NCBI GenBank assembly: GCA_016178625.1 | Contig: JACOSX010000061.1 | Span: forward strand, 1 to 34,330 | Direction of reading: 5' to 3' | Origin: Ignavibacteria bacterium | GTDB taxonomy: Bacteria > Bacteroidota > Ignavibacteria > UBA10030 > SZUA-254 | DNA length: 34,330 nt | In this document: positions 8,052-10,398 of the stretch, in pieces | How positions within the stretch are numbered: the first letter of the stretch is position 1 | Layout: each line of letters opens with the position of its first letter | Notes under the pieces: generated by a model | What the model saw: only the letters and a program-made list of their open reading frames with translations | The model's database searches: none | What the model was told of the DNA's origin: nothing | Translations under genes and position numbers: made by a program

Positions 8052-8104
8052 TTCTTATCTGATAAGAACAGACTGTCCCACACAGAAAGGTCTGTGCGGG
8101 ACAG
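8052..8104. repeat. Two adjacent palindromes (REP-like or terminator)
   Basis: TTCTTATC (8052-8059) pairs with GATAAGAA (8061-8068). Then CTGTCCCACACAGA (8073-8086) pairs with TCTGTGCGGGACAG (8091-8104) at 13 of 14 positions around an AAGG loop. They lie just past the stop of the 31-residue gene, where a terminator would act, but no long T run follows on the minus strand. Confidence 0.6.
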
Positions 8105-8115
8105 CTTGCGATTGC

Positions 8116-8211
8116 CTACCGATTTCTCTTCTTATGTCGATTTTTCCGCAAACGCTTCTTCCGCTTGTGAGTAGCCATCTTTCTGCGTAACCGTTTCTTT
8201 CCGCTTGGCAT
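8116..8211 (-). CDS. 31-residue COX24/AURKAIP1 (mS38)-like basic protein
   Basis: A tiny, extremely basic protein starting MPSGKKRLRRKMATHKRKKR and ending LRKNRHKKRNR, with about 60% Lys+Arg. The pattern KKRxRRKMxxHKRKKRxRKxRHK resembles the C-terminal domain of mitochondrial ribosomal protein mS38 (COX24/AURKAIP1) and its short bacterial counterparts, so a ribosome-associated role is inferred. A strong Shine-Dalgarno sequence AGGAGA sits 5 bases before the ATG at 8211 and overlaps the stop region of the upstream zinc-ribbon/TPR gene, giving translational coupling. The first-residue pattern and ribosome-binding site make this a real gene despite its size. Palindromes follow its stop. Confidence 0.8.
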   Translation of the reverse strand: MPSGKKRLRRKMATHKRKKRLRKNRHKKRNR

Positions 8212-8219
8212 GGGTTCTC

Positions 8220-9104
8220 CTATGATGTTGATCGATTAGTGAAGGAATGTTGATTAAGAAATTGCTGCGCCCTACGACCCACGTCCGAGGTTGAATCAAT
8301 GGCAACGCATTTTTTGAACCACTCCGTCGCCCGTTGGATATCACCGGTGTGGAACGTAATGATCCCCATGTTAAAATGTGCTAACTGATGCTTCGGTGCA
8401 TAGGAAAGCGCTTTCTCCATCTCGCTTTTGGCCGACGCCAGATATTCTGCCGAACGTGAGGAATCGGAAAAAGACAGCTCAAAATACGATGTGCCGAGAT
8501 CAGTTCGTACGTCTGGATTCGCAGGATTGACCTCGAGGTAACGTTCGTACATAACTACTGCCTTTGAGTACATTTTCACATCATGATAGAGATTCGCGAG
8601 CTGTAAAATTGGTCCAATATCTTGTGGATTCGCGGAGACCTGTTTCTGCAATGACTCTATCTCTTTTACCATCGATGCCGCACGGGGAGATAATCCTTCA
8701 GCCACAGGGTGTTCCCCCCGGCTGATCTTCAGGATAATTACTGTTGCAATCAATACAACGCCGAGAGTTAAAGTGAGTTTCCAACTTTGGAAAAAATTCA
8801 ATGGAGATGTAGGGATGGAATGTGTTTTCGCATCGATGGATTTGGTTGAGGAAGTCGATCGACCAGTCGGAGTGAGAACGGCTCCGCAACTTACACATGA
8901 AGTCGAATCCGATAAATTATAACTTCCACACATCGAACAAACACCCGTCGTCGAGGATCGTTCTGGAACCTTATCTCCCCTTGAATTGCTCAATGAGCTC
9001 TCAGGAGCGTCTTGCCACTCAACTCGTGTACCACACGAACTGCAGAACCTATCCGACCTTCCGATCTCACCCCCACAAACCTGGCAAATGACCTTTGGTA
9101 TCAT
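8220..9104 (-). CDS. Zinc-ribbon and TPR membrane protein
   Basis: A 294-residue protein. The N-terminus carries two zinc ribbons, CQVCGG...CSSCG (about 8-25) and CSMCGS...CVSCG (about 56-73). A Ser/Thr-rich linker and one membrane helix (LTLTLGVVLIATVII, about 110-126) follow. The C-terminal 150 residues hold tetratricopeptide repeats, including LANLYHDVKMYSKAVVMYER, VRTDLGTSYFELSF and LAHFNMGIITFHTGDIQRAT. TPRs bind proteins; the ribbons probably face the cytosol. Function is unknown. It sits 19 bases after the HU gene and immediately before the 31-residue basic protein, suggesting one operon of three. The ATG at 9104 is preceded by a weak GGAAG. Confidence 0.75.
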   Translation of the reverse strand: MIPKVICQVCGGEIGRSDRFCSSCGTRVEWQDAPESSLSNSRGDKVPERSSTTGVCSMCGSYNLSDSTSCVSCGAVLTPTGRSTSSTKSIDAKTHSIPTSPLNFFQSWKLTLTLGVVLIATVIILKISRGEHPVAEGLSPRAASMVKEIESLQKQVSANPQDIGPILQLANLYHDVKMYSKAVVMYERYLEVNPANPDVRTDLGTSYFELSFSDSSRSAEYLASAKSEMEKALSYAPKHQLAHFNMGIITFHTGDIQRATEWFKKCVAIDSTSDVGRRAQQFLNQHSFTNRSTS

Positions 9105-9123: not shown

Positions 9124-9429
9124 TCATAACGAGGAGGGCTGTTTCATCTTTAAGTTCTCGTTGACAACTGACCGGAGTTCTTTAGAGACTTTGAAAAATG
9201 GAACATAGTGCTCATCAACCTGAACTTGTGCGCCTGTTCGCGGGTTGCGCGCGATTCTTCCTTTGCGCTTCTTGGTTTTGAAACTACCGAACCCTCTGAT
9301 CTCAATGTTCTTTCCCTCCTTGAGAGCTTCGATCACCGTTTGAATGAAACCATCAACCACAGCTTCAGTTTCCACTTTCGTCAAGCCCGTGCCCGAAGCG
9401 ATATGGTCTACTATGTCTGCTTTGGTCAA
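9124..9429 (-). CDS. hup: HU/IHF family DNA-binding protein
   Basis: A 101-residue nucleoid protein that bends and compacts DNA as a dimer. It has the complete family fold: N-terminal helices (KADIVDHIASGTGLTK), the conserved IEIRGFGSFKTKKRKGR, and the DNA-binding arm with ARNPRTGAQVQV (about 64-75) that carries the intercalating-proline RNP motif. The length is slightly above the usual 90 because of a short C-terminal tail. The start is a TTG at 9429, supported by AAAGGAGA seven bases upstream; there is no in-frame ATG at the right place. A terminator separates it from sppA, so it is probably the first gene of the unit with the zinc-ribbon/TPR and 31-residue genes. Confidence 0.93.
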   Translation of the reverse strand: MTKADIVDHIASGTGLTKVETEAVVDGFIQTVIEALKEGKNIEIRGFGSFKTKKRKGRIARNPRTGAQVQVDEHYVPFFKVSKELRSVVNENLKMKQPSSL

Positions 9430-9451: not shown

Positions 9452-9476
9452 AAAAAATTCTCGTCCGCGTGACGAG
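9452..9476 (-). terminator. Intrinsic terminator after sppA
   Basis: On the minus strand CTCGTC, loop ACGCG, GACGAG is followed by AATTTTTT. It lies between the sppA stop and the HU start, so HU has its own promoter or depends on read-through. Confidence 0.65.
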
Positions 9477-9483
9477 TTGTGAA

Positions 9484-10398
9484 CTAATATCCTTGCAAGA
9501 TCTTATATTGCAAGATAGGTTGATTGAGTAACTCATCTTTCAGTCCCAGGAAGTCAGGGATCTTCGCTTCGCCGAATAACCGCTCAAACAGTGAGAGCCC
9601 ATGTTTTCGCTCTTTCACAATGGAAGGTTCTCCCCGGATGCCAGCAAGTTTCGCGACGATCGCAAGTGCGTCTTCATACGTTCCGATAGTATCTACCAGT
9701 CCAATTTCCACCGCCTGCTCCCCCGTGAACACTCTACCATCAGCAATGGCAAGAACAGAATCGTGTTCCATGTCTCGCTCCTGCTCCACAACAGAGATAA
9801 ACTGCCTGTGTACATCATCCATAATTGTTTGAAAGTATTTTTTATCCGCAGTGGTCATGTTCCTGAATGGATTACCTGCATCTTTGAATTTTCCGCTTTT
9901 GATGGTATTCACACCGATACCAATTTTGTTCATCAACGGATCGAAATGCATGAACTGAGAGATCACACCAATGCTTCCCGTGAGGGTGCCGGGATTAGCA
10001 ACAATCCTGTTTGCACCACATGAGACATAATAGCCACCGCTTGCCGCGAGCGATCCCATCGAGACCACAACCGGTTTTCCGCTCTCTCGCGTTTTTTTCA
10101 CCTCCTCATAAATTTCCTGACTTGCGACAACCCCTCCCCCCGGGGAATCTACACGAAAGAGAATACCTTTAATCGAATGATCATCGCGGTATTTCTTGAA
10201 TTGTCGTACTGTTTCTTCTGAAGTAAGTATCGTGCCGGTGAGATTGACGACGGCTATCTTTGCCCCCGTACCAACGACGAAATCAGTATCGCGATCAGAG
10301 AGATTCCAATAGATGAGAAAGAAGAACAGCGTTGTTCCGAAGCCAATGAAGAGAAGCAACGCAATAATGATAATAAACCATCTTGTTGATTTATTCAT
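9484..10398 (-). CDS. sppA: Signal peptide peptidase SppA (S49 serine protease)
   Basis: A 304-residue inner-membrane protease that degrades signal peptides left after secretion. One N-terminal membrane helix (about 7-30) anchors it. The single S49 domain contains RVDSPGGGVVASQEI (82-96), the nucleophile in MGSLAASGGYY (Ser120), and the segment TIKSGKFKDAG (166-176) that supplies the general-base lysine. GTLTGSIGVI is the conserved strand between them. The size matches the short, homo-octameric Bacillus-type enzyme rather than the about 600-residue E. coli form. It is flanked by terminators on both sides and is probably monocistronic. Confidence 0.92.
   Translation of the reverse strand: MNKSTRWFIIIIALLLFIGFGTTLFFFLIYWNLSDRDTDFVVGTGAKIAVVNLTGTILTSEETVRQFKKYRDDHSIKGILFRVDSPGGGVVASQEIYEEVKKTRESGKPVVVSMGSLAASGGYYVSCGANRIVANPGTLTGSIGVISQFMHFDPLMNKIGIGVNTIKSGKFKDAGNPFRNMTTADKKYFQTIMDDVHRQFISVVEQERDMEHDSVLAIADGRVFTGEQAVEIGLVDTIGTYEDALAIVAKLAGIRGEPSIVKERKHGLSLFERLFGEAKIPDFLGLKDELLNQPILQYKILQGY

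Follow-up and report, generated by a model that had tools for sequence, protein, structure and literature searches.

The stretch of DNA analysed here (the window) comprises 34,330 nucleotides from an Ignavibacteria bacterium and carries on its minus strand a row of genes ending in a small open reading frame (8211-8116), whose 31 residues are MPSGKKRLRRKMATHKRKKRLRKNRHKKRNR. Lysine and arginine make up 58% of the product, and its pI is about 12. The features of the row are collected in Table 1. The AGGAG motif (8221-8217) lies five bases ahead of the ATG; it shares bases with the TAG stop codon (8222-8220) of the preceding zinc-ribbon/TPR gene (the TPR gene), which ends 8 nt before the small ORF begins. 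The first-pass annotation had called this a strong Shine-Dalgarno sequence; over the whole window, 20 of 1305 ATGs (1.5%) have an AGGAG at a comparable distance ahead. The hairpin stretch trailing the ORF (8105-8072) gave a folding energy of -32.7 kcal/mol with a z of -7.2, and an Rfam scan of the window returned no match at gathering score.

Table 1. Features of the row and its borders, in order of position in the window
Feature	Coordinates	Strand	Details
Intrinsic-terminator-like hairpin 3' of bS22	8072..8105	-	15 pairs, strong
bS22 gene (small basic ribosomal protein)	8116..8211	-	31 aa, ATG start
AGGAG Shine-Dalgarno site of bS22	8217..8221	-	overlaps TPR gene stop codon
Protein with two zinc ribbons, one hydrophobic stretch, TPRs	8220..9104	-	294 aa
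HU/IHF-family DNA-binding protein	9124..9429	-	101 aa, TTG start, AAAGGAG at 9443-9437
Weak terminator-like hairpin with run of T, between SppA and HU	9460..9476	-
SppA-type signal peptide peptidase (S49)	9484..10398	-	upstream, same direction

The 31-residue ORF is a real gene, as the annotation had claimed. In all 30 TPR-bearing loci of the order (L002-L031, selected for the TPR gene and including the window's own) it lies directly 3' of the TPR gene at a gap of 8-42 nt, with the same start and length. Across 50 order-level copies, synonymous differences amounted to 0.50 per codon pair versus 0.07 for non-synonymous ones, and base differences at the third and second codon positions to 0.52 and 0.05; strong purifying selection acts on the gene. 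The start codon is ATG in 48 of the 50 loci. That a frame of merely 31 codons might be a chance basic ORF is suggested by its length and by the protein family databases, as neither Pfam nor NCBIfam yields a match over cut-off: COX24_C (PF08213) scored 12.4 bits against a cut-off of 23, below the gathering threshold, and the NCBIfam search found nothing. The identical start, length and position in the 30 loci, the selection on the sequence and its matches to solved ribosome chains leave this explanation with practically no probability. A search of the window's own genome with COX24_C also gave no match.

The residues after the initial Met were compared by phmmer with PDB chains. Only three distinct solved chains matched, all of them ribosome chains: 9i5v_10 (AURKAIP1/COX24 domain-containing protein, E 2.8e-7), 7jil_5 (named both 30S ribosomal protein S22 and 50S ribosomal protein L38, E 1.3e-6) and 8fmw_V (30S ribosomal protein bS22, E 2.6e-4). 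A family profile of 19 sequences spanning the phylum, in which 15 of the 31 positions are invariant, reached these same chains at 1.3e-13, 8.1e-15 and 1.1e-11, respectively, and no other chain up to E 10. We take 7jil chain 5 to be bS22 from the 70S ribosome of Flavobacterium johnsoniae and 8fmw chain V to be that of Borrelia burgdorferi. Like the window's protein these are basic, 28-31 residues long and of the pattern MP.G.KR...K..THKRKK....NRHKK, and the window's protein aligned end to end with the ribosome-resolved bS22 chains. It differs from the 7jil chain in reading LRRKM where the latter has KRHKV, and in ending in an NR tail. Two other loci in the survey (L097 and L098) encode the 7jil chain letter for letter over 30 residues. 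The length and composition of the window's protein also fall within the bS22 class of about 30 residues and 55-65% Lys/Arg, a range taken from PMC10085706. With respect to the double name of the 7jil chain, PMC10618245 distinguishes two proteins in the Flavobacterium ribosome, bS22 and bL38, and assigns bS22 to the small subunit.

The protein is bS22, and it almost certainly serves as a 30S protein of Bacteroidota that is made from the HU-TPR-bS22 row and is placed and acts as in its solved relatives. As a ribosomal protein it is no novelty, since bS22 has been published and structurally solved in relatives and was previously reported from Flavobacterium, Borrelia, mycobacterial and Cutibacterium ribosomes (PMC10618245, PMC10085706). 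The earlier proposal of a small ribosomal protein of the mS38/COX24 type was right about the kind of protein, given the S22, bS22 and AURKAIP1/COX24 chain matches and the published mS38 pocket.

The phylum profile, while reaching the 7jil and 8fmw chains, reached none of the mS38, eL41 or mycobacterial bS22 chains in the PDB search, so kinship to those proteins depends on published structures. According to these, mS38 (COX24/AURKAIP1) and the cytosolic eL41 occupy the pocket of bS22 (PMC10618245, PMC6582356), and the mycobacterial and Cutibacterium bS22, likewise small and basic, sit in the same 30S pocket, with 37% identity given between the Cutibacterium and F. johnsoniae proteins (PMC10085706). 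Mitochondrial mS38 is longer than bS22, and no chain of mS38 or of eL41 matched the profile by sequence. By analogy with the published relatives, bS22 would form a short bent helix in a 16S rRNA pocket lined by h2, h27, h44 and h45, near the decoding centre, and in the 70S ribosome would contact helix H67/H68 of 23S rRNA; PMC10618245 describes this pocket with a contact to H68, and PMC10085706 gives the contact as H67. In such a position the protein would neutralise rRNA charge, steady h44 and add a subunit bridge. In yeast without mS38, h44 and initiation on some mRNAs were reported to be disturbed (PMC6582356). HU, TPR and bS22 are presumably co-transcribed, and translation of bS22 is probably coupled to that of the TPR gene. 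The hairpin ahead of HU may separate this unit from SppA.

Gene neighbourhoods were collected from 128 genomes, which were best-scoring matches or hand-picked across families and are thus a non-random sample. HU was counted at loci with 1400 nt or more of sequence upstream, which excluded the contig-cut ones (L024, L032, L074, L128, L022 and L044). An HU gene was present upstream of bS22 on the same strand at 45 of 46 loci at order level, at all 34 at class level and at 23 of 42 at phylum level; as the HU and TPR profiles were built from the window's order, these figures underestimate the more distant HU and TPR genes. Taken together, the order- and class-level loci give HU in 79 of 80, which, with the exact start kept in the 30 TPR-bearing loci, answers the check for conservation that the annotation had proposed. 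Within those 30 loci HU is upstream in 29 (the exception, L024, is contig-cut), SppA upstream in 27 and a 5'-nucleotidase downstream in 11. With two HU-family genes in the 3.36 Mb of the window's own genome, chance adjacency of HU and bS22 is negligible. Several Bacteroidia-like loci have HU immediately before bS22, and the two loci with the exact 7jil sequence have it just upstream. Elsewhere in the phylum, HU-bS22 or HU-TPR-bS22 can be followed by a large gene, which was RNase E/G in both loci tested (L092 and L113); in L092 a MutY-type gene lies on the other side of the row. The row is not preserved in every clade: at one locus of family f27 (L110) the large gene preceding bS22 is Rho, and no HU was detected there. 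A search of open-access full-text literature found no paper describing an HU-bS22 operon by its title or the start of its abstract, which is weak evidence, as most subscription papers lie outside that collection. The HU-bS22 pairing offers a reliable gene-context handle for finding bS22, and it suggests that nucleoid and ribosome may be linked.

A survey with a 16-sequence profile found bS22 in 58 of 60 relatives, the two misses being genomes 81% (G011) and 90% (G059) complete. In the phylum as a whole it was present in 377 of 395 genomes (358 of 371 of good quality), nearly always as a single copy. Because a nearly universal protein goes unnamed over cut-off by Pfam and NCBIfam, lists of ribosome genes may miss it; although known, bS22 is a small-subunit protein of Bacteroidota that easily escapes notice. 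The constant pairing with HU could point to a basic peptide that works mainly off the ribosome, for example as a nucleic-acid binder together with HU, or as an antimicrobial peptide, given that free Cutibacterium bS22 inhibits cell-free translation and the growth of other bacteria (PMC10085706). We consider a role of this kind very improbable, because relatives of matching sequence were resolved inside the ribosome and the gene is near-universal and usually single-copy in the phylum.

Family f43, all of whose genomes lack a convincing match, accounts for seven of the 18 misses in the phylum, and genus g127 for four, half of its eight genomes. The eleven genomes concerned (f43: G199, G246, G250, G353, G372, G387 and G431; g127: G277, G319, G331 and G391) are of good quality. 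A wider profile at a loose threshold gave no convincing recovery in any of them; one f43 genome returned a 13-residue match at E 0.39. Nine of these bS22-less genomes showed neither HU nor a bS22-like ORF beside RNase E/G in the flank examined, and three bS22-bearing genomes of the same genus likewise had no bS22 or HU there. Two basic ORFs noted at L164 and L171 bore no resemblance to bS22. The absences look like real lineage-specific losses, although the gene may instead have diverged. With all of f43 and half of g127 having no convincing match, not every member of the phylum needs bS22, and its apparent loss in these lineages constitutes a natural experiment on its role.

The TPR gene was a less constant member of the row. 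In five members of the window's family (G001, G005, G008, G009 and G013; loci L047, L061, L141, L142 and L143) HU adjoins bS22 with no TPR gene between them, in the order SppA-HU-bS22-nucleotidase, and only weak TPR matches occur elsewhere in the genome. The TPR gene is therefore dispensable, and HU-bS22 is the core pair. The first-pass annotation had placed bS22 in an operon with both the zinc-ribbon/TPR gene and HU; the linkage to HU is conserved, and the TPR gene can be missing. One might nevertheless see in the TPR protein a dedicated assembly factor or chaperone of bS22, the two forming a functional unit, since they adjoin at 8-42 nt in every one of the order-level loci chosen for the TPR gene. 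The losses in the five relatives argue against such a dedicated partner, as do the Bacteroidia-like loci where HU directly precedes bS22, and the protein's hydrophobic segment (about residues 107-128), located between its zinc ribbons and its TPRs, suggests a membrane anchor; we regard the chaperone role as unlikely. Overall, bS22 is an ordinary ribosomal protein encoded in an operon of moderate interest.

The conserved HU linkage and the start codon of HU are of more interest than the bS22 protein itself. At the HU start of the row (9429-9427, minus strand), 45 of 47 order-level loci carry TTG (34) or GTG (11), in each case with a Shine-Dalgarno motif directly ahead (45 of 45); in the two remaining loci (G035 and G050) an ATG lies two codons upstream of that position. 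Five of the 45 (L004, L006, L037, L051 and L141) have an additional in-frame ATG upstream. The other HU-family gene of the window's genome appears, as judged by eye, to start with ATG, as bS22 does, and set against these the order-wide TTG/GTG looks like a kept feature of the row's HU within the order. ATG occupies the position in 19 of 34 class-level and 19 of 23 phylum-level loci. It is conceivable, though in our estimation improbable, that the row forms a feedback unit tying the supply of nucleoid protein to the state of the ribosome, which would be comparable to the way IF3 regulates its own synthesis through the AUU start of infC. By h44/h45, bS22 would lie near the 16S rRNA end that carries the anti-Shine-Dalgarno sequence, and it may modulate initiation at TTG/GTG starts behind a strong Shine-Dalgarno sequence; ribosomes with and without bS22 would then translate HU differently, and through coupling TPR and bS22 as well.

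With respect to the signals ahead of bS22 itself, a Shine-Dalgarno-like motif was seen in 47 of 50 order-level, 29 of 35 class-level and 10 of 43 phylum-level loci. Unlike the window's gene, the two loci encoding the exact 7jil sequence have none. Bacteroidia are known to lack Shine-Dalgarno use, and the scarcity of such motifs at the phylum-level loci agrees with this.
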